Assembly: GCA_902573905.1 (NCBI GenBank)
Contig: CACGLL010000003.1
Location: forward strand, 1-64,000
Length of the DNA: 64,000 bases
Origin: an uncultured Pelagibacteraceae bacterium
GTDB lineage: Bacteria; Pseudomonadota; Alphaproteobacteria; Pelagibacterales; Pelagibacteraceae
Direction of reading: 5' to 3'
Shown here: positions 7,181 to 23,624 of the stretch, in pieces
Layout of the letters: the number at the start of each line of letters is the position of its first letter
Position numbering within the stretch: the stretch's first letter is position 1
Made by a program: the position numbers and the translations under genes
Notes under the pieces: model-generated
Databases searched by the model: none
What the model was told of the DNA's origin: nothing
The model's input: only the letters and a program-made list of their open reading frames with translations

Positions 7181-7989
7181 AAAATATTTATACATGGGCT
7201 GCTCAACCAGCTCAAAGAAATATCACAGTTGGAGAAATTATTGCCGCAAAGGGGAAAAAAGTTTTAACTCAAGTTACAGCCAACAATGCTTTAGAGGCAA
7301 AAGCTGCAGAAGAAGCAGGTTTTGATATGATTATTGGAAGTGCGTATAATGTAAAAAAGGTTAGAGAGGGATCTAAAAAACTTTTTTATACAGCTGCTTT
7401 AGAATTACATAATTATCAAACAGCTGAAGACGTTTTACGTGGTGCTTTTACTGCATTAGAGAACGGAGCTGACGCGGTAATGACTGCTAGAAGTATGGAT
7501 GTTGTTTCAATGCTAGCAAAAGAGGATGTTCCAGTGATGGGTCATCTAGGCTTGGTCCCAAGAAAATCAACTTGGATTGGAGGATTAAGAGCAGTTGGAA
7601 AAACTGCTGAAGAAGCATACGAATTATATAAAAGATTTAAAAGATTGGAAGAAGCAGGTGCTTTTTCTGCCGAATGTGAAGTTATTCCAGAAAATGTAAT
7701 GGGTGAAATATCGAAAAGAACAAAAATTTCTACTGTTTCTTTAGGATCAGGAAAAAAAGCTGATGTAATGTACTTATTTATGAATGATATTTGCGGTGAA
7801 CAAGAAAAATCTCCACGCCACGCTAAAGCTTATATAAATCTAAAAAAAATGAGAGAAGATATTGAAATTGAAAGAGTTAAAGCGCTTAAAGCATTTATCA
7901 AAGATAGTTTAGAGGGGAAATTTCCTGGACCTGAAAATTCAGTAAATGTTAGTGAAGAAATTCTAGAAAATTTTAAGAAGAAACTTTAA
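7177..7989 (+). CDS. PanB-fold (ketopantoate hydroxymethyltransferase-superfamily) protein, divergent
   Basis: PVMGHLGLVPRKSTWIGGLRAVGKT and ECEVIPENVMGEIS match the PanB pattern; canonical metal-site motifs not found. Confidence 0.7.
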   Translation: MKNIYTWAAQPAQRNITVGEIIAAKGKKVLTQVTANNALEAKAAEEAGFDMIIGSAYNVKKVREGSKKLFYTAALELHNYQTAEDVLRGAFTALENGADAVMTARSMDVVSMLAKEDVPVMGHLGLVPRKSTWIGGLRAVGKTAEEAYELYKRFKRLEEAGAFSAECEVIPENVMGEISKRTKISTVSLGSGKKADVMYLFMNDICGEQEKSPRHAKAYINLKKMREDIEIERVKALKAFIKDSLEGKFPGPENSVNVSEEILENFKKKL

Positions 7990-8909
7990 TCCTTTTTAAT
8001 AGGTATAGTTGGGTGTCTAGTAGTGGATGTAACTATATTTACTCCTAATTTTGCTTCCCTTAATATAATATAAAGACCTGCTCCAATTATTAAAATACTA
8101 CCGATATAAACATTGATTGTTGGTATATCTTTAAATATTAAATAACCTAAAATTCCCCCAGCTAATATTTGAATGTACTGTGCAGATGCAAAAATTGATG
8201 ACGGCAAATGTCTCGCTGAGTTAATTACAAATATAATTCCTATCCCTCTTAAAATGCCAGATCCTAAATTAGTTACTAAATCATTTAAAGGCATGGGTTT
8301 ATAGAAATAAACAGCTATTAATGACGAAAATAATATCATCAATAATTTACCGTAGATTAAAAACGAGTATAACGTTTCTTGGTGCCCATATTTTCTCACA
8401 ATTAAATAACTTGCTGTAGGAAATAAAGGCATAAGAATAGCTATTATCCCTATTTTGGTAAATTCACTACCTAAAGGGTCAATTGCGATAATCGCACCAA
8501 TAAATCCTACACCAGTAGCAAAATATCTTCGCCAGCTTACTTTTTCATTTAAAAAGATTGCTCCTCCAATAGTCAACAATAAAGGAATAGTAAAGATTAT
8601 ACTATAAAGAGTAGTTAGTGGAAGAAAGAAAGTAGAATATATAAAGCAACTCATTGCTAAAAACATAGTTAAAGTCCTAAAGAAATGAACAGTGAAGTTA
8701 GCTTTTCTTATTTTATGCCACGCATTTTTCCATTGAGTATAGATGACCACAGTAATCAATGCAGCAATAGATGCAAATAAAACAATTTGAGTTGCGTGAT
8801 ATCTTGTAATTAAATCTTTATTAACCGTATCTTGGCAGACAAACAAAAAATACCCAAGTAAAGCGAGGGCGAAGTCTTTGTAATAGACTCCTTTAGTAAC
8901 TGATTGCAT
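7986..8909 (-). CDS. DMT/EamA-family transporter
   Basis: About 10 hydrophobic helices; EamA-type repeats (FLNEKVSWRRYFATGVGFIGAI). Confidence 0.85.
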   Translation of the reverse strand: MQSVTKGVYYKDFALALLGYFLFVCQDTVNKDLITRYHATQIVLFASIAALITVVIYTQWKNAWHKIRKANFTVHFFRTLTMFLAMSCFIYSTFFLPLTTLYSIIFTIPLLLTIGGAIFLNEKVSWRRYFATGVGFIGAIIAIDPLGSEFTKIGIIAILMPLFPTASYLIVRKYGHQETLYSFLIYGKLLMILFSSLIAVYFYKPMPLNDLVTNLGSGILRGIGIIFVINSARHLPSSIFASAQYIQILAGGILGYLIFKDIPTINVYIGSILIIGAGLYIILREAKLGVNIVTSTTRHPTIPIKKD

Positions 8910-8912
8910 TAA

Positions 8913-9902
8913 TTAAGAAGATATAATATTTGTTAAATCTCTTCTGTTTCCTTTAAAAGTTGGTAATGGATATTTATAAGACCATTTTCTTGGAATGCAT
9001 TTTACTTTAGCTTCTTCCCATAAAGCAATCCACTGTTTGTAATTTTGTACTTTGATTTTGTTTTTGCTTTTACTTTTGACAATAAAACTAGGTAATGGAT
9101 CTCTTCCAGAAGGCTGGCCTGCTTTATTATATCTTAAGTCCATACTTATTCTAAAATTTTTAGATTTATTTGGAAGCGAACAATGGAGTAGATATTTATT
9201 TAATAATATTATATCTCCAACATCTGCTTCAAGAGCAATTGATGGCAATTTATCAATCATCTCTTTACCTTTTATTTCTACCTGCCCTTTGCTGCCTGTA
9301 ACATGATTAACTAATCCGTATTTATGACTTTCTTTTACAGCAAGCATACAGCCGTTTTCAATTCTTGTTCTAGTAAAAGGTATCCAACAAGTTACTAACT
9401 CAGTACCTTTCTGTCCTTTTTTATTCATTACGCCAGCATCTTGATGCCATGGAGTTCTGCCAACTAATCCATCATGAAGATTTTTACTTAAAATTCTTTT
9501 TTCAGGTTGTTTTATTCTTGAATTCTGACAAGGATTAGAAGCTATCTCGGGTCCTAGAATTTTTTCAATCTTATCTAAAATCTTTTTATTTTTAATTAAA
9601 TTCCATATTGATTGACTTGCAAAAAAATCACTATTAGCATTTATATTGTTCTGAGGAAGTCTTATGTTAAAATATTGATCTAGTTCAGGAATTCTTAACC
9701 CTACTAAGTAAGAATATTTTCTTTTAAAATTATATTTTAAAACTTTAACTTTATCTTTCTTTGGTACAAATCTATGAACAAGTCTGTCCATAATAAATGC
9801 CATATCATTTAAAACTGGTTCTAAATCTTCTTTATAATCTAATACGCCTTTGAGTCTTATAAAACCTTGTTTCTCAAAAACTTTTTTTATGTTCTGGCTC
9901 AT
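8913..9902 (-). CDS. Phytanoyl-CoA dioxygenase (PhyH) family protein
   Basis: PWHQDAGVM (HxD), DIILLNKYLLHCSLPN distal His, FRISMDLRY. Confidence 0.85.
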   Translation of the reverse strand: MSQNIKKVFEKQGFIRLKGVLDYKEDLEPVLNDMAFIMDRLVHRFVPKKDKVKVLKYNFKRKYSYLVGLRIPELDQYFNIRLPQNNINANSDFFASQSIWNLIKNKKILDKIEKILGPEIASNPCQNSRIKQPEKRILSKNLHDGLVGRTPWHQDAGVMNKKGQKGTELVTCWIPFTRTRIENGCMLAVKESHKYGLVNHVTGSKGQVEIKGKEMIDKLPSIALEADVGDIILLNKYLLHCSLPNKSKNFRISMDLRYNKAGQPSGRDPLPSFIVKSKSKNKIKVQNYKQWIALWEEAKVKCIPRKWSYKYPLPTFKGNRRDLTNIISS

Positions 9903-9938: not shown

Positions 9939-10736
9939 TTAAACTGCAAGTGCCTTTCTCATTTCTTCATCGTCCATTTTTTTACCCAAATATGCCTCGA
10001 TCACAGCGTTGTCATCTTTAACTTGAGCTGGATTGCCCTCTGCAATTTTCTGGCCGTGGTCAAAAACAGTTACTGAATTACAAGTATCCATTACGACTTT
10101 TAAAATATGCTCTATAATAATAAGAGTAAGGCCATACTTTTCTTTCAGCTGCATGATTATTTTCATTAAATTATCAACATTGACCGGCGATAATCCAGCT
10201 GCTGGTTCATCTAACATTAATAATTTAGGTTTCATAGCAATAGCTCTAGCTAGAACTAAAAGTCTTCTCTGGCCTCCAGAAAGTTCACTTGCATTCAGCT
10301 CTGCATAATCAGCTAAACCAACAAATGATAGCAATTCCATCATTTCTTCTTTAATTGCTCTTTCTTGATCCCAGATTTTTTTTCTTCCTATGACTGCATC
10401 GAAAAACTTATAAGGAACTCTAGTATGATACCCCGACATAACATTATTTATAACTGTCATATCTTGATAAAGTCTAAGTAATTGGAACGTTCTTGATAAA
10501 CCATAACTAGCAATCTCATGTGGAGGAGTAAAAGTAATATCATGACCATCAAATTCAATATAACTGCCAGGATCACTATCATAGATGCCAGAAACCAAAT
10601 TGAAAAATGTACTTTTTCCTGATCCATTAGGACCAATTATTCCTCTGATTTCATTTTTAGGAAGCTCAAAATCAACTTTATTCATGGCTTTAAGACCACC
10701 AAAAGATTTTGAGAGTTGTTTAGTTTTTAAAAGCAT
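9939..10736 (-). CDS. livG: Branched-chain amino acid-type ABC transporter ATP-binding protein (LivG-like)
   Basis: GPNGSGKSTFFN Walker A, LSGGQRRLL signature, LLMLDEPAAGLSP Walker B. Confidence 0.9.
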   Translation of the reverse strand: MLLKTKQLSKSFGGLKAMNKVDFELPKNEIRGIIGPNGSGKSTFFNLVSGIYDSDPGSYIEFDGHDITFTPPHEIASYGLSRTFQLLRLYQDMTVINNVMSGYHTRVPYKFFDAVIGRKKIWDQERAIKEEMMELLSFVGLADYAELNASELSGGQRRLLVLARAIAMKPKLLMLDEPAAGLSPVNVDNLMKIIMQLKEKYGLTLIIIEHILKVVMDTCNSVTVFDHGQKIAEGNPAQVKDDNAVIEAYLGKKMDDEEMRKALAV

Positions 10737-11725
10737 TATGTTTTTTCTGTTCCAGTTTTCTTTTTAAATCTCTTTTCTAAAAAATATCTGTCAATAAAAC
10801 CGCCTAAACCCTTTGGCATAAATAAAATCGTTAATACAATTGTTAAACCAAATATTAAAAGCTGATATTTATATAATGGTCTAGTTAAGTCATAAACAAT
10901 TGTAATTACTATAGCGCCAATAATTCCACCCCAAATATGACCGAGACCTCCTAGGACAACCATGGCCAAGAAGGTTACCATTTCTATAACTGTGTAATTA
11001 TTAGGATGAATGTACCCTGGAGGCATGTGAGCATAAACTGCACCTGCAGCACCAGCGAACATAGCGCTCAGAATAAAAGCTAAGATTTTATATTTTTTTA
11101 CATTAATTCCAGCTGCTGCAGCACAAATTGGATCCTCTCTTATAGACATAAAAGCTCTTCCAACTCCAGATCTTAAAATACTAAATGAAAAATAAACTGC
11201 AATAATCATTACAGTCATCGAAATAAAATAATATCTATCAGGTGAGTCAAAATTAAATCCCATTAAAGATGGAGTGGGGATATCAGAAATTCCAAATGTT
11301 GATCTGAAAAAATTTCCATTCTCAATAAATAATCTTATTGCTTCACCTCCGCCCAGTGTAGCTAAGGCTAAATAAGGCCCTTCCAATCTAAAGGAAGGAA
11401 TTCCCATTGCTACGCCAAAAAACGCAGTAACTATTATTGCGATGGGTAAAGTTACCCAAAAGCCAAGGCCTAAATATAAGAATAATGTACCTGCAGTATA
11501 TGAGCCCACCGCAAACAAACCAACATGACCTACTGTAACCTGACCACAGTAACCCTTAACAATATTAAGTCCTGCAGCAACAACAATGTTTACAAATATT
11601 AATGTTGCAAGGTGGGATTGGTAAACATCTGTGAATACAACTGACGGAACAAAAGCTAAAATTACGAAAGCAATAATAAAAGCTATGAATGGATAATCTC
11701 GTATAATTGATTTAAATTTTTCCAT
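10736..11725 (-). CDS. livM: Branched-chain amino acid-type ABC transporter permease (LivM-like)
   Basis: GYCGQVTVGHVGLFAVGSYTAG, IREDPICAAAAGINV, GGLGHIWGGIIGA. Confidence 0.92.
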   Translation of the reverse strand: MEKFKSIIRDYPFIAFIIAFVILAFVPSVVFTDVYQSHLATLIFVNIVVAAGLNIVKGYCGQVTVGHVGLFAVGSYTAGTLFLYLGLGFWVTLPIAIIVTAFFGVAMGIPSFRLEGPYLALATLGGGEAIRLFIENGNFFRSTFGISDIPTPSLMGFNFDSPDRYYFISMTVMIIAVYFSFSILRSGVGRAFMSIREDPICAAAAGINVKKYKILAFILSAMFAGAAGAVYAHMPPGYIHPNNYTVIEMVTFLAMVVLGGLGHIWGGIIGAIVITIVYDLTRPLYKYQLLIFGLTIVLTILFMPKGLGGFIDRYFLEKRFKKKTGTEKT

Positions 11726-12591
11726 TAGCCAACTTCTCGCATTAAATAATCTGAGTCATGTGATGAAGTAAGCATTCGTTTATTTGTACTTTTAATTTTT
11801 GGTAAGTAACTCACATTTTTATATCTCCAAACCACTGGCTTACTTAAAGCGTAACTTCCATAAATAAAAAATCTTTTTCTGCCATTTGTTTCTTTAAACA
11901 ATGAAACACCATGATAAGAATTTGGAGTGGACTGAAAAAAAATCACACTGCCTTTAGAAGGTGTAAATTCTGTCACTTTAGTTAATTCAGAAATACCTGG
12001 GAATCTTTTAAAACTTTTTCTGTATTTCATATCAGCTTTCTTTTTAAATATTGATAAAGCTCCTCCATTTTTTTTTGGTATATCGTTTAGATAGATTAAA
12101 AAATTGTATAGTCGAGTAACATCATCTCTATGCGGTCTTAATCTATAACCACCTCTAGAAACTGAAAAATCAATATCTAAATTAACGTTTGGATTTTTAT
12201 AAGTTTTACCTAACATCTTTATTAATTCTTTAGAGTTCATGAGTTTTTTATTAGTAAACTTATCTCTTAAAAATCTATTAGGTAAATATGCGTTTGACCA
12301 ACCATAATCTTTAAAAGATTTTTTAAATTTTTTTTCAACTTTTTTATAAAAAGATTGGCTATTAAACTGTTTGTAAAGTTTATGTGAAAGTTTTGAATTT
12401 ATTAAATAATTTTTAAAATTTTTAGAGCCTTTATTTATTCTATTTCTGCCACCCATGATCATATCATCAAAAGATTTTGCATTTTTAATTTCATTAATTA
12501 ATCTCTCGCAATCCTTTGCAGATATTGCTCCTTTTCCAATCATGACTGGAAAGTTGCTTTTTACCTTCTTCAATTTGTTAACGTCAATCAT
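11725..12591 (-). CDS. 2OG-Fe(II) oxygenase family protein
   Basis: RLRPHRDDVTRLYNFLIYLND (HxD) ... NSYHGVSLF distal His ... GRKRFFIYGSY Arg. Confidence 0.75.
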   Translation of the reverse strand: MIDVNKLKKVKSNFPVMIGKGAISAKDCERLINEIKNAKSFDDMIMGGRNRINKGSKNFKNYLINSKLSHKLYKQFNSQSFYKKVEKKFKKSFKDYGWSNAYLPNRFLRDKFTNKKLMNSKELIKMLGKTYKNPNVNLDIDFSVSRGGYRLRPHRDDVTRLYNFLIYLNDIPKKNGGALSIFKKKADMKYRKSFKRFPGISELTKVTEFTPSKGSVIFFQSTPNSYHGVSLFKETNGRKRFFIYGSYALSKPVVWRYKNVSYLPKIKSTNKRMLTSSHDSDYLMREVG

Positions 12592-12610
12592 ATTGTGTTT
12601 TGTTAAAAAA

Positions 12611-12637
12611 ATGAGCGGTAGATAAACTACCGCTCAT
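12611..12637 (-). terminator. Rho-independent terminator after the ABC substrate-binding protein gene
   Basis: Perfect 11-bp stem ATGAGCGGTAG/CTACCGCTCAT with 5-nt loop, followed on the minus strand by TTTTTT. Confidence 0.85.
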
Positions 12638-12649
12638 AAATTTTAGTTT

Positions 12650-13840
12650 TTATAAACCAGCGCTAGCATTGAATGTTACAGTACCAGCAACACTTGTTTT
12701 AAAGTTTTTACCACCTCTTGTGTATTCGATCATAACAGGTGTTCTGTTACCATCTCTACACTCAGGAGTTCCTGATTTACAGAAATTGATTGGACCAGAT
12801 GCTAAACCATTGAAATCAGTAGTAGCCGCAATCGCGTCTCTTACTTTATTTCTGTCAGCAGCTAGATCTCCAGTGAATTTAACTTTTTTAAGAGCTATCT
12901 CTAGAATATCTAGTAAGTCCATCATTTGTGAAAAGTCGTGACCAGGTACAACACCATATTTGTCCTTAACCATTTTCACAAATTTCTTAGCTACAGGTCT
13001 CTTATCAGATGCAGCAAATGCAGCAGCATACGTTACACCTTTAGCAGCAGAACCAGCGTTAATTGGTATCTCTACTTTAGAACCAATAGAAGCTGTTACT
13101 CTGTGAACAGATTTTGGTATTCCAACTTCATACGATTGTACAAGTCCTCGAACTGTTTCATCCAATAGAGCTGAAATTACAAGAACTTCTGGATTAGTAG
13201 CTTTAGCTTTAGTTAAGTAACTTCTAAAGTCAGTTTCTTTTTCTCCAGATTGAACCATATAAGTTGGCTCAACATTGTAGTTCTCTCTCATGTAATCAGC
13301 TAAAGATAATGCAAAATCTTTACCAGCAGCATCTGGACCATAGATATAAGCTATCTTAGTTCCTTGATTTTCTGCAGTAAATTTACCTTGTACGATTTTG
13401 TAAAATCTTGATGATACAGGTACTCTAAAAATGTACTCACTACCTTTTTTAGTAATGTCAGCATTTGTCGAGTGAGGTATTATTTGTGGAACTTTAGCTT
13501 TAGCTGAAACAGGTACCATAGGCAATGTTACAGAACTACAGCTAGATCCAATTATAACGTGAACTTTATCTTGGTAAGCAAGTTTTGTTGCATTTGCTAC
13601 ACCTTTCTCAGATTTACACTCATCGTTATAAAGTGTTAAGTCGATTTTTTGACCGTTGATAGTGCCTTCTTTATTCCACTTTGCAACAGTATCAGTAATT
13701 AACTCACCATGTTTGTAACCCACATCAGAAAGCATTCTGAATGAAACACCAATTTTGATTGTTTCTGCTTGAGCTATCGATGTAGCTACCAAACCAAAGG
13801 TAAAGATAATTGCTGAAAAAACGTTTTTAAGTTTATTCAT
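12650..13840 (-). CDS. ABC transporter substrate-binding protein, Liv/urea family
   Basis: Signal peptide MNKLKNVFSAIIFTFGLVATSIAQA; periplasmic type-1 fold IKIGVSF..., GSSCSSVTLPMVPVS. Confidence 0.9.
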   Translation of the reverse strand: MNKLKNVFSAIIFTFGLVATSIAQAETIKIGVSFRMLSDVGYKHGELITDTVAKWNKEGTINGQKIDLTLYNDECKSEKGVANATKLAYQDKVHVIIGSSCSSVTLPMVPVSAKAKVPQIIPHSTNADITKKGSEYIFRVPVSSRFYKIVQGKFTAENQGTKIAYIYGPDAAGKDFALSLADYMRENYNVEPTYMVQSGEKETDFRSYLTKAKATNPEVLVISALLDETVRGLVQSYEVGIPKSVHRVTASIGSKVEIPINAGSAAKGVTYAAAFAASDKRPVAKKFVKMVKDKYGVVPGHDFSQMMDLLDILEIALKKVKFTGDLAADRNKVRDAIAATTDFNGLASGPINFCKSGTPECRDGNRTPVMIEYTRGGKNFKTSVAGTVTFNASAGL

Positions 13841-13865
13841 ATATCCCCCATTAATTAATTAATTG

Positions 13866-13895
13866 TTGATCAGGCTATAAAATTAAAGTTATAAT
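13866..13895 (+). promoter_or_regulatory. Candidate sigma70 promoter for the livF-livH operon
   Basis: TTGATC - 18 bp - TATAAT in the divergent intergenic region. Confidence 0.4.
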
Positions 13896-13946
13896 GTCTA
13901 TGAAAAATAGATATAATTTTTATACATAACAATTCAGGAGGGGGAA

Positions 13947-14669
13947 TTGCTTAAGATAGACCAGCTTGTCTCAGGCTACGGTACAGTTCAAATTTTAAAT
14001 GGTGCCAACATGAAAGTTGATAATCAATCTATAGTTGCATTATTAGGTGGTAACGGTACAGGCAAATCTACAATCTTAAAAGCAACATCTGGATTAATTA
14101 GAGCTTGGAAAGGATCAATAGAATTTGATGGAGAGCAAATCCACAATTTACCTCCACATGAAATAGTTGGCCGAGGACTTGTTCAAGTTACACAAGGTAA
14201 AGATGTTTTTCCTGCAATGTCAGTGACAGAAAACTTAAGATTAGGCGGGTTCATTCTTAAAACTAAAAAACAATTAAACGATAATTTAGAAAAGGTTTTT
14301 AATTATTTTCCAAGATTAAATGAAAGGAAAGATCAATTAGCAGCAACACTTTCTGGTGGAGAGTTACAAATGCTTTGTATTGGAAGAGGATTAATGTCTA
14401 ACCCTAAAATGATTATGTTAGACGAACCAAGCGCTGCCTTGGCGCCACAAATTGTTTTAGATATTTTCAAGAACATAAATAGAATTAGAAAAGATGGTTT
14501 AACCGTTTTAATAGTAGAGCAAAATGTAAGAATGGCTCTTCTTTTGGCAGACTATGGATATGTAATAAAAGACGGTGTGATTAATGTTGAGGGCGATAGT
14601 AAAAAACTCATGTACGATGAAAGTGTAAAGGAATCTTATTTAGGGGGAACAAAAGTTAATGTTCAATAA
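13947..14669 (+). CDS. livF: Branched-chain amino acid-type ABC transporter ATP-binding protein (LivF-like)
   Basis: GGNGTGKSTILK, LSGGELQMLCIGRG, MLDEPSAALAP; TTG start preceded by aggaggggg RBS. Confidence 0.92.
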   Translation: MLKIDQLVSGYGTVQILNGANMKVDNQSIVALLGGNGTGKSTILKATSGLIRAWKGSIEFDGEQIHNLPPHEIVGRGLVQVTQGKDVFPAMSVTENLRLGGFILKTKKQLNDNLEKVFNYFPRLNERKDQLAATLSGGELQMLCIGRGLMSNPKMIMLDEPSAALAPQIVLDIFKNINRIRKDGLTVLIVEQNVRMALLLADYGYVIKDGVINVEGDSKKLMYDESVKESYLGGTKVNVQ

Positions 14670-15696
14670 GCTTAGAATTGGAAAAAAGGGTGAAAATATA
14701 ATTTTTAGTGTCTTTGTTCTAATTTATATTGCTTGGTGCGTTAACAGTCCTGACATGAATATTGAATCGTTAAAATCAGTTTTAACCATTGGTTTATCTG
14801 TAGGTATAATTTATGGCCTTGTAGCTTTAGGTATTTCATTAATTTACACAGGTTTAGATGTTGTAAACTTTTCTCACGGAGAATTTTTTATGATCGGTGC
14901 GTTTGCTGGTTTAACAATGTTTAACGTTTTAGGAGATCAAGATTGGATTTTTAATGTTTTTCCTGATGCTTATGGCTGGATAATATATGTGGTTTGTTTA
15001 TTTACAGCTTTTGTTTCAATGGGTCTATTTGGTGTTTTTATTGAGAGAGTATTTTTAAGACCATTAACTAAAAAAGGTGGTGGTTATACCGTTGCTGGTA
15101 TGGGAATAATCATTTGCGGATTTGGTTTATCGGTGGTTTTGATTAACGTAGCTTATTTAATTTGGAATCCTGTTGCAAAACCTTTTCCAGCGGAATTAGG
15201 TTTGCCAATGGAAATTGGAGGATTATTTTTACCTATCACTTACATTTGGATGATTATTGTGGGTCTTGGAGTGGCTGCGGGTCTTTGGTTCTTTTTAAAT
15301 AAAACTAAAATGGGACTAGGAATTCGTGCTGTAGCATTTTCTAAAGATGTCTCAAACTTAGTAGGAATAAATGTTCCTTTATATATTTCAATAATTTTTG
15401 GAATAGCATGTGCAATTGCTGGTATTGGAGGGACACTTGTTGGTCCAACTTATCAAGTTGTGGTTTTCATGGGTTACATTATTCTAATGAAGGCTTTCGC
15501 AGCAGCAGTTGTTGGTGGATTTGGAAATCTTCCAGGCGCCATCGTAGGCGGATTTACTGTTGGTATATTTGAAACAGCTTCATCTTTTTATATTTCTGGA
15601 AGCCATAAAGATCTATATGCATTTTTATTAATGATAGTTGTTTTAATGATTAAACCAACTGGTTTCTTTGGAACTCAAGTCAAAATGAAAGCTTAA
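14659..15696 (+). CDS. livH: Branched-chain amino acid-type ABC transporter permease (LivH-like)
   Basis: GLVALGISLIYTGLDVVNFSHGEFFMIGAF, AAAVVGGFGNLPGAIVGG. Confidence 0.92.
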   Translation: MFNKLRIGKKGENIIFSVFVLIYIAWCVNSPDMNIESLKSVLTIGLSVGIIYGLVALGISLIYTGLDVVNFSHGEFFMIGAFAGLTMFNVLGDQDWIFNVFPDAYGWIIYVVCLFTAFVSMGLFGVFIERVFLRPLTKKGGGYTVAGMGIIICGFGLSVVLINVAYLIWNPVAKPFPAELGLPMEIGGLFLPITYIWMIIVGLGVAAGLWFFLNKTKMGLGIRAVAFSKDVSNLVGINVPLYISIIFGIACAIAGIGGTLVGPTYQVVVFMGYIILMKAFAAAVVGGFGNLPGAIVGGFTVGIFETASSFYISGSHKDLYAFLLMIVVLMIKPTGFFGTQVKMKA

Positions 15697-16640
15697 TGAT
15701 AAATAAAGATACAAAAGTCGCTGTATTAGGTGCTGGAGCAATGGGCTGTCTATTTGGAGGTTTATTAGCTGAAAAGGGTTTAAATGTAACTCTTATAGAT
15801 GTTTGGCAAGAACATGTAGATGAAATTAATAAAAAAGGGTTAAAAATGATGGGTTATGGTGGAGATCGAACAATTAAAATTAAAGCTACTACTGAACCTA
15901 AAACATTAGATAAAGTTGATGCAATTATAGTGATGTGCAAAGCAACAGCTTTAAAAACAGCTTTGACAAATTCAAAAAATATCATTGGCGACAAGACAAT
16001 GTTAATGTCTTTTCAAAACGGTATTGGTCATGAGGAAATCATGCAAGAAATTGCTGGTACAGATAAAGTTTTAGGGGGGTCTACTACTCAAGCAGCGAGT
16101 GTTCAAGGTCCAGGAATTATTCAAAATCATGCAAGTCTTCCATCTTGGATTGGTGAATATAATGGTGGAGCAACTGAAAGAGTTAAAGATTTAGCTGAAA
16201 CTTTTACCGCTTTTGGATTAGAAACAAGAACTGAAGAAAATATTAAAAAAAGAAAATGGATGAAGTTATTTGCACTTACTGCAATAGGTCCTCTATCAGC
16301 TATATTTGATCTACATCATACAGATTTATATATCAGCAATAAAAATCAAAACATGTCTAGAAAATTAGGAAAAGATATAATTCTTGAAACTAGAAATGTA
16401 GCTAAAGCAGATGGTGTCGATGTAACAGAAGATGAGTGTTTAGAAATGTTCAATAGAATTGTCGACTCTAGGCAAACAAATAAATCTTCCATGGCGTTTG
16501 ATGTTCTTAAGAAGAGAGCCTCGGAAATTGATTTTATTAGTGGCGCTGTGTCTAGGATAGGAAAAAAACACGGGGTAAAAACCCCATTAAACGATTTAAT
16601 GTATAGTATTATCAAAATCAAAGAGGGTATGTACGTATAA
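15696..16640 (+). CDS. Ketopantoate reductase (PanE/ApbA) family dehydrogenase
   Basis: AVLGAGAMGCLFGGLLAEKG, SFQNGIGHEEI, KKRKWMKLFALTAIGPLSAI. Confidence 0.85.
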   Translation: MINKDTKVAVLGAGAMGCLFGGLLAEKGLNVTLIDVWQEHVDEINKKGLKMMGYGGDRTIKIKATTEPKTLDKVDAIIVMCKATALKTALTNSKNIIGDKTMLMSFQNGIGHEEIMQEIAGTDKVLGGSTTQAASVQGPGIIQNHASLPSWIGEYNGGATERVKDLAETFTAFGLETRTEENIKKRKWMKLFALTAIGPLSAIFDLHHTDLYISNKNQNMSRKLGKDIILETRNVAKADGVDVTEDECLEMFNRIVDSRQTNKSSMAFDVLKKRASEIDFISGAVSRIGKKHGVKTPLNDLMYSIIKIKEGMYV

Positions 16641-16645
16641 GAGTT

Positions 16646-18559
16646 GTGTCTAAAGAAATCATTTGGCATCCATCTAAAAATCAAGTTCAAAATTCAAAAC
16701 TAACTGAATTTATTAAATACTGTAAAACGAAAGATTATGATGAATTAGAAAAGAAAAGTTTTTCAGATCCAGGATGGCTTTGGGACAAAGTAATTAAATT
16801 TAGTGATTTAAAATTTTATAAACCATATACAAAAATATTAGATGAATCCGAGGGGACTCCTTGGACTAAGTGGTGTGTAGGAGGGAAAACTAATATTGTT
16901 CTTAATTGTATAGATCGACATAAGAATCAAGAATTTTTTAAAAAGACTTTTATTTTTGCTGAAAGAGAAGATGGGAAAGAAAGCTCAATTACTTATGAGG
17001 AATTTGATAAGCAAATATCAAAGGTTGGGAATACTTTAAAGACTAATGGTTTTAAAAAAGGTGATGTGATCGCATTATATATGCCTCAATTTATAGAAAC
17101 TTACGTTGCTTACTTTGCTATTTTAAAAGTTGGGTGTGTGGTACTACCTTTATTTTCTGGATATGGATCAAAGGCAGTCATTGAAAGAATGAGCATAGCA
17201 AAAGCAAAAGGAATTTTTACTGTTGAAAAGACATTTAGAAAAGCAAAAGAGATAAGAATGTTTGATCAAATTAAAGATGATTTAGATCAAGTAATTTCTT
17301 TAGAAAAAATATTTTTATTAGGAAAAGAAAAAGGAAAGAAAATTTTTAACTGGGAAAATTTTCAAAATGTTTCCGATAATTTAAAAACAGAGGAAACAAA
17401 TTCAGAAGATCCTGCAATTATTCATTTTACATCAGGCACAACAGGAAAACCCAAAGGATGTGTTTATACTCATATTGGTTTAGTTACCAAGATGTCTTTT
17501 GATGAGGGAGTTTTAGCAGACTTTAAACAAACTGATGTTCATTTGTGTATGGCTGACATGGGATGGATGGTGGGTTCTAAGTCTGCAACAATAGCTTCCG
17601 TACATGGAGCGCAAATGGTAATTGCTGAAGGTGTGCCTGATTTTCCTGATGAAGTTCGTTTCTGGAAACTTATTGAAAAATACAAGGTTTCCTGGACAGA
17701 ACTTTCTCCTGCTCTCATTAGAGCGCAAATGATTAAAGATGAAAATCTTTTTAAAAATTTAGATTTAAGCTCGTTAAGGATGATTTGTACTGGTGGAGAA
17801 CCTTGGACAGAAAAACCTTGGAAATGGTTATTTCAAGTCATTGGCAAATCTAAAGTTCCTATTATGAATTCAGCTGGGGGGACCGAGGTTTCTGGTTCTA
17901 TTTTACATTGTTGTTTACATCGTCCTTTTAAGGTTGGATCTTTTAATGCTCCCATTCCCGGAATGAGTGCGGACATCTTAAATTTAGATGGAAAAAAAGT
18001 TTCTACAAATGAAATGGGTGAATTGGTCATGAGAAAATCATCAATTGGATTAACAAAGAGTTTATGGAATGACGATAAGCGTTACATCGATAATTACTGG
18101 AGTATGATTAAAGATTATTGGGTGCATGGCGATCTTGCAAGTAGGGATGCTGATGGTCATTGGTATTTACATGGAAGATCTGATGATACCATTAAAGTGT
18201 CAGGAAAAAGAATAGGTCCTACCGAGCTTGAGAGTGTTATAGTAAAAAGTGGAAAAGTAAAAGAGGTTGCTGCTGTTGGAATACCTGACGAAAATAAAGG
18301 ATCAAAAATCATTTTATCTATAGTTCCTGCAGAAAACAATGATCAAAAAGAAAGTTTTTTTGAAGATTTAGTTATAAAAGATTTAGGGAAATCATTTAAG
18401 CCTGATAGGGTAATTTTTGTAAAAGATTTGCCTAAAACAAGAAATATGAAAATTATGAGAAGAGTTATAAAATCATGTTTAGCAAACCAAGATCCAGGTG
18501 ATTTAACAACACTATTAAATCCAGAGTCTGTAGATGAAATTAGATCACATGCGATTTAA
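16646..18559 (+). CDS. Acetoacetyl-/acetyl-CoA synthetase-like acyl-CoA ligase
   Basis: HFTSGTTGKPKGCVYTH AMP-binding motif, DYWVHGDLASRDADGHWYLHGRSDDTIKVSGKRIGPTELES. Confidence 0.9.
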   Translation: MSKEIIWHPSKNQVQNSKLTEFIKYCKTKDYDELEKKSFSDPGWLWDKVIKFSDLKFYKPYTKILDESEGTPWTKWCVGGKTNIVLNCIDRHKNQEFFKKTFIFAEREDGKESSITYEEFDKQISKVGNTLKTNGFKKGDVIALYMPQFIETYVAYFAILKVGCVVLPLFSGYGSKAVIERMSIAKAKGIFTVEKTFRKAKEIRMFDQIKDDLDQVISLEKIFLLGKEKGKKIFNWENFQNVSDNLKTEETNSEDPAIIHFTSGTTGKPKGCVYTHIGLVTKMSFDEGVLADFKQTDVHLCMADMGWMVGSKSATIASVHGAQMVIAEGVPDFPDEVRFWKLIEKYKVSWTELSPALIRAQMIKDENLFKNLDLSSLRMICTGGEPWTEKPWKWLFQVIGKSKVPIMNSAGGTEVSGSILHCCLHRPFKVGSFNAPIPGMSADILNLDGKKVSTNEMGELVMRKSSIGLTKSLWNDDKRYIDNYWSMIKDYWVHGDLASRDADGHWYLHGRSDDTIKVSGKRIGPTELESVIVKSGKVKEVAAVGIPDENKGSKIILSIVPAENNDQKESFFEDLVIKDLGKSFKPDRVIFVKDLPKTRNMKIMRRVIKSCLANQDPGDLTTLLNPESVDEIRSHAI

Positions 18560-19319
18560 AGATATATTATATGAAGTTAAAGGTGATTACGCTCATGTCA
18601 CTATAAATAGACCTAAGGTGTTAAATGCTTTTACACCAGTAACTCTTCAAGAACTTAAGGTAGCTCTCCATGACGCAGAAAAAGATAAAGAGGTTGGAGT
18701 AATAGTTTTATCAGGCACTGGAGGTAGAGCATTTTGCTCAGGTGGAGACATGAACTGGGAAAGCTCTAAAGAATTTCAAGATCATGAATACGAATTTCAC
18801 ATTCACTTAACTAAGTGTAGTAAACCTATAATTGCAAAAGTCGATGGTTACGCAATAGGAGGGGGTAATCACATGGCATATTTTTGTGATTTAACTATAG
18901 CAAGTGAGAATTCTATATTTGGACAAAATGGTCCCAGAGTAGGTTCTCCCGCGGGAGGAGCTATCGTTGCCCATTCTGCAAATATTTTAGGACACAAACG
19001 TGCAAGAGAAATGTGGATGACATGTAAAAGATACTCTGCAAAAGAGATGATGAATTGGGGATTGGTAAACTCAGTAGTGAAGAAAGATAAATTAGACGAG
19101 GAAGTTAAAAAGTATGGTGATGAAATTTTAAAAGCCGCACCTACTTGTTTAAAAATATTAAAGGCCAGTTTTAGAAAACAATTTGAAGAAATTTTAAAAA
19201 TTACCCAAAAAGGTATGGTTGAAGAAGTTGCTCCAGGTTATTTTAAAACTGGCGAACAGGCAGAGGGTGCAAAAGCTTTCTTAGAAAAAAGAAAACCTAA
19301 CTTCAAAAAATTCAGGTAA
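18534..19319 (+). CDS. Enoyl-CoA hydratase/isomerase family protein, MenB/BadI-like
   Basis: GRAFCSGGDMNW, GYAIGGGNHMAYFCDLTIASENSIFGQNGPRVGS, GHKRAREMWMTCKRYSAKEMMNWGLVN. Confidence 0.88.
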   Translation: MKLDHMRFKDILYEVKGDYAHVTINRPKVLNAFTPVTLQELKVALHDAEKDKEVGVIVLSGTGGRAFCSGGDMNWESSKEFQDHEYEFHIHLTKCSKPIIAKVDGYAIGGGNHMAYFCDLTIASENSIFGQNGPRVGSPAGGAIVAHSANILGHKRAREMWMTCKRYSAKEMMNWGLVNSVVKKDKLDEEVKKYGDEILKAAPTCLKILKASFRKQFEEILKITQKGMVEEVAPGYFKTGEQAEGAKAFLEKRKPNFKKFR

Positions 19320-20408
19320 ATGAAAATAAAATCTATCAAAGCTATAACTTTGAGTATGCCATTTAGTCATGGAGGTAAAAAAGTAATTTTTCACGGAAAA
19401 GAATGGAAAAGTTTGGAATTTAACCTAGTTAAAATTGAAACAGATAAAGGTATCACTGGTTGGGGTGAAGCCTTTGGTTATACAAGTTGGAAAGCAGTAA
19501 AAATTGCAATCGAAGAAATGGTGGCTCCTTTAATTGTAGGAAAAGATATGAGTAACATACCAGATCTTCTTTTAACCCTTCAAAAATCTTTGCACTTATT
19601 TGGTAGATACGGGATAACAATGTTTGCAATATCTGGTGTTGAAATTGCATTATGGGATGCTTTAGGCAAAGAAAAAAGTAAGCCAATTCATGAATTGTTA
19701 GGAAAAAAAAATAAAGATTTATTTAAAGCCTATTCAAGTCTTTTTAGATATGGAGATCCAAAAATTATAGAACAAAAATGTAAGCAATCTTTAGATGACG
19801 GTTATCAAGCAATTAAACTACATGAAATAGAGAATGATTGTATAGAGGCTGGTAGAAAAGGAACAGGTAATCTTCCTTTAATGTTAGATACTAATTGTCC
19901 TTGGACTTATGAAGAAACACTATCCAAAAAAGATTTTTTAAAAAGCATGAAACTCACTTGGTTAGAAGAACCTATTTACCCACCAGAAGATTATGAAACT
20001 CTCGCAAAATTAAATAAAGAACTAGGGATACCTATAGCTTGTGGAGAGAATGCATGCACAGAATTTGAGTTTAAATCAATGATTAAACAAAAAGCAGCTA
20101 CTTTTGTTCAACCGTCAGTAATAAAAGTTGGTGGTATTTACGAGATGTTCAAAATAATTCAACATGCAGAAAAAAATGATATCTCTGTAATGCCTCATAC
20201 TGCTTATTTTGGGCCAGGTTTTTTAGCCACTCTTCAATTATCTGCATTAATGAAAAAGGACACCTATATTGAAAGATTCTATTTAGATATTGATCAGGAA
20301 TTTTACCCAAATTTCAAGAGAGCACTAAATGGAAAGTATAAATTACCCTCCGGACCAGGTCTTGGTATTGATTTAGACTATAATAAATTAAGTAAATATG
20401 AAATATAG
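19320..20408 (+). CDS. Enolase superfamily (mandelate racemase/muconate lactonizing) protein
   Basis: GWGEAFGYTSW, AIKLHE, LMLDTN, WLEEPIYPPED, ACGENACT, MPHTAYFGPGF. Confidence 0.9.
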   Translation: MKIKSIKAITLSMPFSHGGKKVIFHGKEWKSLEFNLVKIETDKGITGWGEAFGYTSWKAVKIAIEEMVAPLIVGKDMSNIPDLLLTLQKSLHLFGRYGITMFAISGVEIALWDALGKEKSKPIHELLGKKNKDLFKAYSSLFRYGDPKIIEQKCKQSLDDGYQAIKLHEIENDCIEAGRKGTGNLPLMLDTNCPWTYEETLSKKDFLKSMKLTWLEEPIYPPEDYETLAKLNKELGIPIACGENACTEFEFKSMIKQKAATFVQPSVIKVGGIYEMFKIIQHAEKNDISVMPHTAYFGPGFLATLQLSALMKKDTYIERFYLDIDQEFYPNFKRALNGKYKLPSGPGLGIDLDYNKLSKYEI

Positions 20409-21048
20409 ATCTGTTTTATTCGTTCCAGGACACGAAGAAAAAAAAATTAAAAAAGCATATACATTAAATTCAGATTTAATAGTTCTTGACTTAGAATCAA
20501 CCGTTCCTGAAGATCAGAAAGATCAGGCTAAAAAAATAATAAAAGAATGCAATGTTAATAAAAATCAAACATATATAAGAATAAATAAAAATTCTGATTT
20601 AGAATTTGTAACATCAGAAAAATTCCCTGGAATATTCTTACCTTTTACGGAGTCAAAAAAACAGTTAATAGAGATAGATGCATTATTAAAAAAAAACGAG
20701 AAATTGAAGACCGATGTAATCCCTATCTTGGAAAGTATAAACGGTTTAGCTAATCTTCAGGAAATTTGCTCTTTTACAGAAAGAATTCAAATTATATCTT
20801 TTGGTTCTCATGATTTAGCTAAATCAATAAATCTTAAGATTTCAGAAGATGAAAAAGAAATATTGGAATTTAGAAAAAACATAGTAAATAAATCTAAAAA
20901 TATTAAGAGTCCAATAGATACCTCTTATTTGAATTTTAAAGATTTAAATGGATTTGAAAACTCATGTAATATGGTTAAAAAATTAGGTTTTGGTGGTAAA
21001 GCTTGTATTCATCCGGACCAAGTTCAAATCTCGAACAAAATTTTTTAA
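20398..21048 (+). CDS. CitE/HpcH-HpaI aldolase family protein (short form)
   Basis: RSVLFVPGHEEKKI, LDLESTVPEDQKD, ILESINGL, GGKACIHPDQV. Confidence 0.8.
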   Translation: MKYRSVLFVPGHEEKKIKKAYTLNSDLIVLDLESTVPEDQKDQAKKIIKECNVNKNQTYIRINKNSDLEFVTSEKFPGIFLPFTESKKQLIEIDALLKKNEKLKTDVIPILESINGLANLQEICSFTERIQIISFGSHDLAKSINLKISEDEKEILEFRKNIVNKSKNIKSPIDTSYLNFKDLNGFENSCNMVKKLGFGGKACIHPDQVQISNKIF

Positions 21049-21452
21049 TGATGAATACTAAGAAACTTTTGTACTTTGCTTACGGTACAAACCTAAATAA
21101 AAAAATTTTTTTAAAAAAATATAAAAATACCAAATATCTAAGAAAGCATATTTTGCAGGGTTTTGAATTAGTCTTTAGATCAAAATATAGAGTACCAGAT
21201 ATACAAAGAAAAAAGGGTTCAAATGTAAAAGGCATAATTTATGAAATAGATAAAGCAACTGAGAAAAAATTAGATAGATACGAAGACTATCCTAAGTTAT
21301 ATATAAAAAAATTTTTTATTAAAAATAGAAAAAATGTAATGTATTATTTCATGAAAAGAAAAACTCCTATTTTAAAGCCTTCAATTTATTACTTAAAAGT
21401 CATTAAAAGCGGATATCGACAAAATAACTATAAATTCAATTTTAAATATTAA
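21048..21452 (+). CDS. Gamma-glutamylcyclotransferase (AIG2-like) family protein
   Basis: LYFAYGTNLN substrate-loop motif, KGIIYEIDKATEKKLDRYED; ATG at 21048 overlapping the upstream TAA preferred over the ORF-track start at 21003. Confidence 0.75.
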   Translation: MMNTKKLLYFAYGTNLNKKIFLKKYKNTKYLRKHILQGFELVFRSKYRVPDIQRKKGSNVKGIIYEIDKATEKKLDRYEDYPKLYIKKFFIKNRKNVMYYFMKRKTPILKPSIYYLKVIKSGYRQNNYKFNFKY

Positions 21453-21453
21453 A

Positions 21454-22494
21454 GTGAAAAATAAAATAAAGATTGCAGTTGTGGGGATTGGCTTGATGGG
21501 CAGTCAACATTTAAAAGCTTTAAGTGTTTCAAAAAAAGCAAAACTCCATTCAATTGTAGATTTAAATAAAAATTCCATAATTCATGCTAAAAAGTTTAAA
21601 GTTCCATTCTATAGATCATCGACAGAATTACTTAATAGAAATAAACCAGATGCTGTAATTGTAGCTACACCTAATCAATTTCATGAAAAACATACGATAA
21701 GTTTTTTAAATGCAAAAATACCTGTATTATTAGAAAAACCAATTTCAGATAATATTTCAAAAGCAAAAAAAATTATTAAAAGCTCAAATAAAAATAAAAC
21801 TCATCTTCTTATTGGTTATCATAGAAGGCACAACAGTATTGTAAATAAAGTAAAGAAACAGATTGACAGCGGAAATCTTGGAAAAATTGTTGCTGCTAAT
21901 GTTATGTGTTGGTTGTACAAGAATAAAGATTGGTACAAAGAAAAATGGCGTATTAAAAAAGGAGGCGGTCCTTTAGGTATTAATTTAGTCCATGATATTG
22001 ATCTCATTTGTTACTTGCTAGGTCCCGTAACTCATGTTCAAGCAACAACTTCAAATAAAATTAGAAAATATGAAGTTGAGGATACAGCAATTGTTAATTT
22101 TTCCTTCAGATCAGGTGCGTTATGTACATTAAGTGTTTCAGATACAATTGTAGCTCCATATAGTTATGAACTCACAGCTGGAGAAAATCCAGCCTACCCT
22201 ATAACAAATCAATCAGCATATTTTATTGGAGGCACAAAAGGCTCAATACAATTTCCAAACTTAAAACATTGGTACAACAAAGGTGAGAGAAGTTGGTGGA
22301 AACCGATTTATCATAAGGATTTTAATATTCGTTTGAGTAGATTTACTCTAATAAATCAAATTGATCATTTATGTGATGTTGTGTCTAGAAAAGCAAAACC
22401 AAAAGTAAGTGGAAATGATGGCTTACAATCGCTTAAAATATTTGATGCTATATTAAGAAGTACTAAAACTGGAAAAAAAATTAGAGTAAATTAA
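21454..22494 (+). CDS. Gfo/Idh/MocA family oxidoreductase (first of three)
   Basis: AVVGIGLMGSQHLKAL, VLLEKPISDN, GPLGINLVHDIDLICYLLG; GTG start. Confidence 0.9.
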   Translation: MKNKIKIAVVGIGLMGSQHLKALSVSKKAKLHSIVDLNKNSIIHAKKFKVPFYRSSTELLNRNKPDAVIVATPNQFHEKHTISFLNAKIPVLLEKPISDNISKAKKIIKSSNKNKTHLLIGYHRRHNSIVNKVKKQIDSGNLGKIVAANVMCWLYKNKDWYKEKWRIKKGGGPLGINLVHDIDLICYLLGPVTHVQATTSNKIRKYEVEDTAIVNFSFRSGALCTLSVSDTIVAPYSYELTAGENPAYPITNQSAYFIGGTKGSIQFPNLKHWYNKGERSWWKPIYHKDFNIRLSRFTLINQIDHLCDVVSRKAKPKVSGNDGLQSLKIFDAILRSTKTGKKIRVN

Positions 22495-23624
22495 TGAAAA
22501 GACTTAAACTTGGTATCATTGGTGGTGGTCCTGGATCATGGATTGGTCATGTTCATAGGATAGCTTCAAGATTTGATGATAAATATGAAATTGTAGCAGG
22601 TGTTTTTTCAAGAAATTATAAAATCAATCAGTCTTTCGGAACAAGTATAGGAATAAAAAAAGATAGATGTTACAAAAGTTTTAAAGATCTTTGTTATTTT
22701 GAAAAAAAAATTAAAAATGGTATCGATGTGGTGGCAATTATGACACCCCCTGGGAGCCACCAAGAGATTGCAGAATTATTTATTAAAAATAACATTCATG
22801 TAATATCTGATAAACCTTTTGCAGGTTCTCTAACTCAAGCTAAAAAACTTTATAAAACAATTAAAAATAATAAAAAAATTGTTTACGGACTTACACATAA
22901 TTATTCGGCTTACCCAATGGTAAGGTATGCTAAAAAATTAGTAGAAGATAAGAAACTTGGAAGTATTGAATATATTAATGTTGAGTATGTCCAGGACTGG
23001 TCTAATGGTAAAAAAGTTACCGTTAGTTCTGCAAAAAAAATATTCAAATGGAAGTTAAATAAAAAAATAGCCGGAGTTTCTACTGTACTAAATGAAATTG
23101 GATCTCATGCATATCATTTATGTAATTACATTACTGGTCTTAAAGGAAAAAGCTTATTTGCAGATATCAAACAATATTCAAAAAAAATTAGATTTGATAC
23201 AAACGCTCAAGTTTTTATAAATTATGAGAATGGAGCTAAGGGTTTGTTTTGGGCATCGACTACTGCTAAGGGCGGTATTTACGGATTAAAAATAAGAGTA
23301 TTTGGATCAAAAGGTAGTATGGAGTGGGTTCAAAATGATCCAAATTATTTAAAGTTTAGTTCGGCGAATGGTGCAACTAAAATTTTAGAAAGAGGATTTA
23401 ATGAAAGTCATTTCTCAAAAAAATTTTCAAGAATTAAATATGGTCATCCCGAGGGTTACCTAAGTGCTTTTTCAAACTTATATAAAGAAATAGCTTCAAA
23501 AATTAATTCTAATAATAGAAATACAAGATTTTTATTCCCAACAGCTTATGAAGGTTTGCTTACAGCCAAGTTTATTGATGGGTGCGTAAAATCCTCTTCA
23601 AAAAAGAAATGGGTCTCATTTTAA
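22494..23624 (+). CDS. Gfo/Idh/MocA family oxidoreductase (second)
   Basis: GIIGGGPGSWIGHVHR, VISDKPFAGSL, EIGSHAYHLCNYITG. Confidence 0.9.
   Translation: MKRLKLGIIGGGPGSWIGHVHRIASRFDDKYEIVAGVFSRNYKINQSFGTSIGIKKDRCYKSFKDLCYFEKKIKNGIDVVAIMTPPGSHQEIAELFIKNNIHVISDKPFAGSLTQAKKLYKTIKNNKKIVYGLTHNYSAYPMVRYAKKLVEDKKLGSIEYINVEYVQDWSNGKKVTVSSAKKIFKWKLNKKIAGVSTVLNEIGSHAYHLCNYITGLKGKSLFADIKQYSKKIRFDTNAQVFINYENGAKGLFWASTTAKGGIYGLKIRVFGSKGSMEWVQNDPNYLKFSSANGATKILERGFNESHFSKKFSRIKYGHPEGYLSAFSNLYKEIASKINSNNRNTRFLFPTAYEGLLTAKFIDGCVKSSSKKKWVSF

Follow-up and report, generated by a model that had tools for sequence, protein, structure and literature searches.

The window analysed here, a stretch of 64,000 nucleotides from an uncultured Pelagibacteraceae bacterium (GenBank assembly GCA_902573905.1, contig CACGLL010000003.1, positions 1 to 64,000 of the forward strand), belongs to a partial SAR11 genome assembly of 620,759 bases in 20 contigs, with single cells of uncultured Pelagibacteraceae as its nearest named relatives, and carries a cassette in which the genes of a Liv-type ATP-binding cassette (ABC) importer are joined to a series of enzyme genes. 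A preliminary description, made from the sequence without database searches, had set this cassette at positions 9939-21048. The list of open reading frames (ORFs) and domain searches returned every gene it had named, in place on two divergent strands and with agreeing domain calls. The genes of that interval do belong to the cassette, but it does not end at 21048: three Gfo/Idh/MocA dehydrogenases (21454-24542) follow, and a PhyH-type dioxygenase gene (8913-9902) lies past livG. The oxygenase placed in the minus-strand operon is indeed present (11725-12591), but it is optional. The genes are as follows:

8913-9902, minus strand: PhyH-type 2-oxoglutarate (2OG)-Fe(II) dioxygenase (PhyH; PF05721, E=1.2e-18), conserved as the last gene on the minus-strand operon
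9939-10736, minus strand: livG-type ATPase (ABC_tran with a BCA_ABC_TP_C tail)
10736-11725, minus strand: livM-type permease (PF02653)
11725-12591, minus strand: 2OG-Fe(II) oxygenase, optional (PF13640, E=5e-10)
12650-13840, minus strand: HAAT/Liv-type solute-binding protein (SBP; PF13458, Peripla_BP_6, E=1e-34)
13947-14669, plus strand: livF-type ATPase with a TTG start (domain call)
14659-15696, plus strand: livH-type permease (domain call)
15696-16640, plus strand: PanE/ApbA-family 2-hydroxyacid dehydrogenase (PanE), above the ApbA/PanE subfamily cut-off (TIGR00745, 246.5 bits vs 141.4)
16646-18559, plus strand: acyl-CoA synthetase of the acetyl/acetoacetyl-CoA synthetase type (AcsL; AMP-binding and ACAS_N)
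18534-19319, plus strand: MenB/BadI-clade crotonase with a GSPA motif (ECH; profile scores and motif alignment)
19320-20408, plus strand: enolase-superfamily protein (ENO; MR_MLE, MR subgroup), acid-sugar dehydratase-like, with a KLHE motif (N and C domains)
20398-21048, plus strand: CitE-like lyase (HpcH/CitE) of 216 aa without the C-terminal lid (PF03328)
21051-21452, plus strand: GGACT-like ORF, optional, between CitE and Gfo1 (PF06094, E=2e-13)
21454-22494, plus strand: Gfo/Idh/MocA dehydrogenase Gfo1, a core member (41/41 loci)
22494-23624, plus strand: Gfo/Idh/MocA dehydrogenase Gfo2, optional (27/41 loci)
23625-24542, plus strand: Gfo/Idh/MocA dehydrogenase Gfo3, optional (26/41 loci)
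4185-4934, minus strand: short-chain dehydrogenase/reductase (SDR), a probable accessory member (a 36-43% identical homolog adjoins PanE in non-SAR11 clusters)
4931-5710, minus strand: HpaH/MhpD-like hydratase, a possible accessory member (TIGR02312, 64 bits, below cut-off; 25-28% identical homologs next to non-SAR11 transporter clusters)

Neighbouring genes on the plus strand overlap by at most 26 nt or are spaced by 0-5 nt. The divergent SBP and livF genes are separated by 106 bp, in which one sigma-70-like match was found, not above chance expectation.

We compared enolase-centred loci across a total of more than 80 contigs from SAR11 and counted genes in the 41 longest loci, which were chosen for having SBP, livG and CitE, hence only the counts of the other genes are informative; what we report on genes, protein families, co-inheritance and ortholog neighbourhoods was obtained by computation. 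livM, livF, livH, PanE, AcsL, ECH, ENO and Gfo1 are each present in 41 out of 41 loci, and PhyH adjoins livG in 38. Gfo1 comes after CitE in all 41 fully covered loci, the two genes abutting or overlapping in many strains; the 405-bp gap between them in the window is a strain-variable GGACT-like ORF. Besides Gfo2 and Gfo3, the 2OG oxygenase (26 loci) and an EamA gene (14 loci) are optional. When SBP and ENO were searched independently in the same 151 relatives, both were found in 27, SBP alone in 2, ENO alone in 4 and neither in 118 (Fisher p ~2e-23, uncorrected for relatedness), and several of the exceptions with only one of the two lie near contig ends. In the reshuffled locus of RIS_SAG_62 (L018/L091), SBP-AcsL-ECH-ENO-CitE-Gfo1 occupy one strand and PanE-livH-livF the other, with the set still intact. 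This conservation of the neighbourhood bears out the view of the preliminary description that we are dealing with one transporter-coupled catabolic set, and we hold with high confidence that the cassette is one unit coupled to its own transporter.

Alternatively, two or three independent functions could share a hypervariable island of SAR11, namely the transporter with PanE, an AcsL-ECH pair and an ENO-CitE-Gfo1 acid-sugar module. These modules are indeed found apart outside SAR11, inserts occur both at ECH/ENO (a 384-aa ORF) and at CitE/Gfo1 (the GGACT ORF), and in three loci (L094, L096 and L100) a block of tripartite ATP-independent periplasmic (TRAP) transporter and uronate genes, described below, interrupts ECH/CitE. 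On the other hand, each of the 41 long loci has all ten core genes together, and in RIS_SAG_62, where the order is shuffled, SBP has come to stand with AcsL-ECH-ENO-CitE; we regard such an assembly of unrelated parts as improbable.

Both inserts vary by strain. The GGACT/AIG2-like (gamma-glutamylcyclotransferase-fold) ORF is present in ∼41 out of 90 SAR11 loci scanned and cleanly missing from the others. The 384-aa ORF, which separates ECH from ENO in a number of strains (L033, positions 6949-8103, and also L034, L072, L076, L084 and L092), has a signal-peptide-like start and matched no Pfam family; the initial suspicion of an acyl-CoA dehydrogenase was dropped with this result, and we suspect a serine-hydrolase/beta-lactamase-like fold from its sequence. 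In the single cell SAG-MED41 (L025/L090), SBP has two in-frame stop codons (TGA and TAA) and livG is split, with the enzyme genes intact, reflecting either decay or an assembly error; as SBP and livG are broken in this cell, loss appears to happen as well.

The transporter has the composition of a HAAT/Liv ABC importer (a Peripla_BP_6 SBP, two BPD_transp_2 permeases and two LivG/LivF-type ATPases). Its Liv annotation at the family level and a LivJ-like domain could suggest an ordinary branched-chain amino-acid transporter beside short-chain acyl-CoA catabolism, but every Liv equivalog cut-off (NCBIfam) is missed by a wide margin (76/477 bits for SBP, 233/362 for livG, 223/441 for livF and 210/366 for livM), in line with the earlier view that this is not a standard system of that kind. 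Moreover, the acidic residue by which amino-acid-binding relatives hold the alpha-amino group of the ligand appears to be missing family-wide: by sequence alignment only (the SBP model has a pLDDT of 45), the Asp of 3td9 and 4gnr falls opposite I252 or T249, in a segment without an acidic residue in 8 orthologs. Since the neighbours are not amino-acid genes either, this explanation is in our judgement extremely improbable. R247, S251 and S254 of SBP are invariant in orthologs, and its nearest solved relatives include the Liv-type proteins 4ey3, 3sg0 and 4dqd, which we take to bind aromatic ligands.

Outside SAR11, where class-wide genome searches and plasmids provided the evidence, the SBP family is rare (at E<=1e-60, 6 out of 386 genomes of Alphaproteobacteria, including that of the window; 12 out of 136 in the SAR116-like order of genome G357), its orthologs showing 44-51% identity. 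LivF/LivG orthologs are 59-66% identical in three other alphaproteobacterial families (about 60-62% for livG). PanE, at 34-43% identity, stands alongside the transporter in nearly all of these loci with sufficient flank, and the further partners are an SDR, an acyl-CoA dehydrogenase, a CoA-transferase, Gfo1, MaoC and a xylose-isomerase-like TIM protein. For example, the G357 cluster runs hydratase (25% identical to the product of 4931-5710) – PanE – SDR (41% to that of 4185-4934) – acyl-CoA dehydrogenase – CoA-transferase – Gfo1-like – MaoC – SDR – TIM – livF – livH – SBP – livM – livG, and ends with a major facilitator superfamily gene, a LysR gene and then a protocatechuate 4,5-cleavage operon; genes for LigA, LigB and 4-oxalomesaconate tautomerase lie beside the transporter in both G357 and L155. 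A gene set of this type is found again in L153-L161, and L145, L146 and L148, from two other families, carry it as well. The latter three loci have the same divergent split as SAR11 (livF-livH opposite SBP-livM-livG); the division of the transporter noted in the preliminary description is therefore an old architecture and not a SAR11 peculiarity. Homologs of the hydratase occur in L163, L145, L146 and L148 (E 5e-29 to 8e-42), and in a single SAR116 locus (L161) livG is followed by a 34% identical PhyH homolog.

The 3-dehydroshikimate dehydratase QuiC (NF042435) was found in 9 out of 14 non-SAR11 SBP carriers, partial matches counted. Eight such genomes have QuiC in full length or as a long partial match, and in five of them (G344, G598, G601, G604 and G645) it lies 2.1-9.0 kb from SBP, a closeness with a binomial chance of ∼1e-8 if relatedness is ignored; in L145 QuiC scores 845 bits. 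G511, with a 44% identical SBP ortholog, has neither PanE nor QuiC nearby. The best solved relatives of PanE are 3wfi, 3wfj and 5x20, presumably D-mandelate-type 2-hydroxyacid dehydrogenases. Gfo1 has 41-42% identical orthologs on rhizobial plasmids, and those of Shinella share an operon with genes for shikimate dehydrogenase, type II dehydroquinate dehydratase (AroQ) and a xylose-isomerase-like protein.

AcsL scores far under the cut-offs for acetyl-CoA and acetoacetyl-CoA synthetases (TIGR02188, 471/725 bits, and TIGR01217, 251/521 bits). Its 42% identical homologs in L118 and L119, which belong to the same family, are encoded immediately 3' of a near-equivalog BadI (456/468 bits) in both genomes, adjoining an old-yellow-enzyme reductase; the remoter AcsL neighbourhoods (L117-L130) are mostly varied and are informative only in this BadI pairing. 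ECH, initially described as a MenB/BadI-like crotonase, does fall in the MenB/BadI clade, but its identification as BadI is not supported (245 of 467.6 bits for TIGR03210), and the MenB cut-offs are also missed (PRK07396, 249/380; TIGR01929, 233/343 bits). It carries GSPAGG vs GSFDGG in MenB and GSVDPG in BadI, the motif Asp being replaced by Ala. The BadI-like protein of L118 retains GSVDPG, and GSPA is kept in all six non-SAR11 ECH orthologs inspected (G372, G361, G171, G504, G331 and Leisingera), at 54-60% identity. ECH orthologs with GSPA adjoin a BadH-like SDR in L112 and L113 (274 and 251 bits), and the ortholog in L116 adjoins an AliB-like (cyclohexanecarboxyl-CoA-dehydrogenase-like) enzyme (514 bits). 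From its relatives, ECH likely acts in ring-acyl-CoA chemistry; that it cleaves the ring itself would be a guess. The CoA ligase beside the Leisingera ortholog, considered as a conserved AcsL-ECH pair, was rejected as an acetoacetate-CoA ligase only 24% identical to AcsL.

The BadH- and AliB-like neighbours would also suit an aromatic or non-hydroxylated alicyclic carboxylate (e.g. hydroxybenzoate or cyclohexanecarboxylate) degraded by Bad/Ali-like CoA-linked ring cleavage, as would the presumed aromatic ligands of 4ey3, 3sg0 and 4dqd and the protocatechuate genes adjoining transporter orthologs. However, the SAR11 cassette contains no ring reductase, ring epoxidase, ring dioxygenase or acyl-CoA dehydrogenase, and with such a substrate there would be no obvious job for ENO, a sugar-acid dehydratase, or for the inositol-dehydrogenase-like Gfo1; we assign it a low probability.

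ENO belongs to the MR subgroup, having the MR_MLE N and C domains and the invariant metal ligands D190, E216/E217 and E243. It is without the KxK base motif and the His-Asp dyad: nine sequences, down to 39% identity, all keep K166-x-H168 and H293 and have S266 where the dyad has its Asp. KLHE is retained in at least 17 out of 20 further class members of the family, and none of the five closest solved relatives has K-x-H at this place, showing KLR or K-x-K instead. The best score of ENO against acid-sugar dehydratase and galactarolactone cycloisomerase equivalogs is 167/650 bits; its solved relatives include 4ggb/4hpn and 3,6-anhydro-galactonate cycloisomerase. Beyond SAR11, members of the family are repeatedly found with uronate-dehydrogenase-like enzymes (in G347, locus L183, uronate dehydrogenase together with DctP/DctM), and in Mesorhizobium a dehydrogenase, ENO and the HpaI/GarL-type aldolase HpaI stand in a row.

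The SAR11 uronate block consists of DctP-M24 / DctM-uronate dehydrogenase-ENO', in which the uronate dehydrogenase matches 3rft (E=1.5e-51) and ENO' is 60% identical to ENO. In L094, L096 and L100 the block stands between ECH and CitE, with ENO' in place of ENO and without an HpaI/GarL-type aldolase; in L098 it stands alone, and an aldolase of this type, scoring best to HpaI, follows ENO'. As CitE occupies the spot of this aldolase after ENO', it would stand in for a 2-keto-3-deoxy-acid aldolase. The contigs of L095, L097 and L098 carry the block without Liv/AcsL genes, and an M24 peptidase-like protein, with no obvious role, always accompanies it. The CitE-like lyase itself is below the CitE and RipC cut-offs (TIGR01588, 106/443 bits; NF038242, 99/375 bits), where full length is ∼270-290 aa; it has 213-217 aa in the SAR11 copies checked, carries LFVPG, E112 and D139 and ends just past the IHPxQ motif. 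Its predicted fold (pLDDT 84) is the CitE/malyl-CoA lyase barrel (TMq ∼0.81), and the missing C-terminal lid would fit a non-CoA or end-of-chain substrate.

Because of the enolase, the strongest rival explanation is the degradation of hexuronates or aldarates by Liv import, oxidation by Gfo1, ENO as an aldarolactone cycloisomerase/dehydratase and CitE as a keto-deoxyglucarate aldolase, with AcsL and ECH acting on a side product. It would account for the substitution of ENO by ENO' within the TRAP and uronate dehydrogenase block, for the recurrence of the ENO family with uronate dehydrogenase outside SAR11 and for the relatedness to 4ggb/4hpn. Yet in no case outside SAR11 was uronate dehydrogenase found alongside the Liv transporter, whose orthologs lie beside QuiC and protocatechuate genes; the uronate block has a TRAP transporter of its own, and the core cassette is without uronate dehydrogenase. 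A CoA ligase and a crotonase would also be superfluous for a uronate route, yet they are present in 41 out of 41 loci. We consider this explanation unlikely.

Overall, a cyclic (alicyclic or aromatic-derived) carboxylate is the probable substrate. More specifically, though only tentatively, we propose that the cassette imports and degrades a hydroxylated cyclohexane- or cyclohexenecarboxylate of the quinate/shikimate class. Both the alicyclic hint of the preliminary description, which pointed in the right direction, and its order of uptake, CoA activation and ring or C-C cleavage of a carboxylate fit the neighbourhood evidence. The substrate class, all reactions and their order we infer from homologs and gene neighbourhoods; we put the scheme together from the known chemistry of other pathways (BadI, acid-sugar dehydratases, HpaI), and it would give every core enzyme a job in one order.

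In this scheme, SBP and LivFGHM would import the acid, and Gfo1, PanE and the SDR would adjust the oxidation state at ring or 2-hydroxy positions; PhyH, plus the 2OG enzyme where present, may introduce hydroxyl groups or give related substrates entry to the route. AcsL would then form the CoA thioester. ECH would cut the ring, BadI-like, between the CoA-bearing carbon and the adjacent keto carbon, leaving a chain with a free HOOC-CHOH-CHOH- end, the type of carbon end on which enolase-superfamily acid-sugar dehydratases act. For example, BadI-type cleavage of 2-keto-3,4,5-trihydroxycyclohexanecarboxyl-CoA would give HOOC-CHOH-CHOH-CHOH-CH2-CH2-CO-SCoA, whose aldonic-acid-like end ENO would dehydrate to a 2-keto-3-deoxy acid, HOOC-CO-CH2-CHOH-CH2-CH2-CO-SCoA, that is, the CoA ester of 4-hydroxy-2-oxoheptanedioate. 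A retro-aldol reaction of the CitE-like lyase would then release pyruvate and an aldehyde, which for a shikimate-type skeleton would be succinyl-semialdehyde-CoA or, after hydrolysis, succinate semialdehyde.

Several observations weigh against the quinate/shikimate proposal. Ring cleavage by ECH is doubtful because the motif Asp, which we presume to act in MenB, is gone; CitE-family folds normally work on CoA esters, and the contexts of the ENO family are varied. None of AcsL, ECH, ENO and CitE turned up beside the transporter outside SAR11, where the clusters have a CoA-transferase, an acyl-CoA dehydrogenase and MaoC in their place; the two halves of the argument therefore stem from different relatives. 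The non-SAR11 Gfo1 and hydratase homologs are only 25-33% identical, and four of the five close QuiC-SBP pairs come from one order, which brings the independent count nearer to two. QuiC (NF042435) was found in none of 10 SAR11 carriers, and no SAR11 locus has another quinate-specific gene.

A literature search found no paper tying SAR11 to quinate or shikimate use; a quinic-acid-like metabolite has been reported for Phaeocystis (PMC7686483). Other substrates were considered and dropped: homarine or another betaine (no supporting gene, the papers merely co-mentioning them), a dimethylsulfoniopropionate-type acyl-CoA route (no matching enzymes) and pantoate, to be degraded by PanE and a PanB-like protein (7177-7989). 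The latter, a member of the ketopantoate hydroxymethyltransferase family under the panB cut-off, is present in only 1 out of 41 long loci. Together with a DUF1907 protein (5775-6740) it accompanies the SDR and hydratase genes (4185-5710) beside the cassette in L026, L034, L096 and L105.

All carriers of the cassette are within one genus, out of 11 genera. The search of viral contigs returned no relative of the enolase, and that of plasmids no relatives of SBP, PanE or CitE at the limits used. The right flank past Gfo3 differs by strain (L036-L061 and similar), being trxB/ELM1-like, as in the window, or an lpxB-like / lipid A region, and the left flank is also variable, as expected for a hypervariable island.

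SAR11 are among the most abundant marine heterotrophs and have few transporters, and each transporter that stays linked to an orphan pathway tells which fraction of dissolved organic matter is drawn on. If the proposal holds, SAR11 would draw on cyclic hydroxy-acids, compounds related to the shikimate pathway that all algae possess. It is conceivable, though doubtful, that a sizeable fraction of one SAR11 genus has a protocatechuate-bypassing route for quinate/shikimate-type acids, with CoA activation, ring cleavage by a new GSPA branch of the MenB/BadI crotonases, and then a dehydrating KxHE enolase and a lidless CitE-like aldolase. The cassette makes these three uncharacterised groups (GSPA crotonases, KxHE enolases and lidless CitE-like lyases) testable with named candidate reactions.

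Among known systems, the cassette resembles the Bad (BadK-BadH-BadI)/Ali cyclohexanecarboxylate pathway of Rhodopseudomonas palustris in the CoA activation followed by a MenB/BadI-clade crotonase predicted to act on a cyclic acyl-CoA, and in the BadH-like and AliB-like genes neighbouring ECH orthologs. It differs in the low BadI score of ECH (245/468 bits) and its missing motif Asp, in having no acyl-CoA dehydrogenase or BadH, and in an enolase and a CitE-like lyase where Bad/Ali has beta-oxidation. With the catabolism of quinate and shikimate via QuiC to protocatechuate it shares orthologous transporter, PanE and SDR families, which in SAR116 and a further two families lie next to QuiC or lig genes; in contrast, SAR11 carriers have no QuiC (0/10) and the cassette no aromatic ring dioxygenase, and the route would bypass protocatechuate. 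In the oxidative hexuronate pathway (uronate dehydrogenase, galactarolactone cycloisomerase, keto-deoxyglucarate aldolase) an enolase is likewise followed by a 2-keto-3-deoxy-acid aldolase, and SAR11 has a uronate block with ENO'; on the other hand, the core cassette has a Liv transporter, a CoA ligase and a crotonase, no uronate dehydrogenase, and KxH vs the catalytic KxK. The CitE-like lyase differs from the CitE / (S)-citramalyl-CoA lyase / CLYBL family in its length (216 aa), in the absence of the part C-terminal to IHPxQ and in its score for CitE (106/443 bits), but it has the fold (TMq ∼0.81) as well as LFVPG, E112, D139 and IHPxQ in common with them. Finally, unlike the 4-hydroxyphenylacetate lower pathway (HpaH, HpaI), the cassette is without the ring-cleavage enzymes for 4-hydroxyphenylacetate, and all matches are under equivalog cut-offs; the likeness lies in the predicted intermediate, 4-hydroxy-2-oxoheptanedioate or its CoA ester, in the HpaH-like accessory hydratase and in the aldolase of L098, which is best matched to HpaI.

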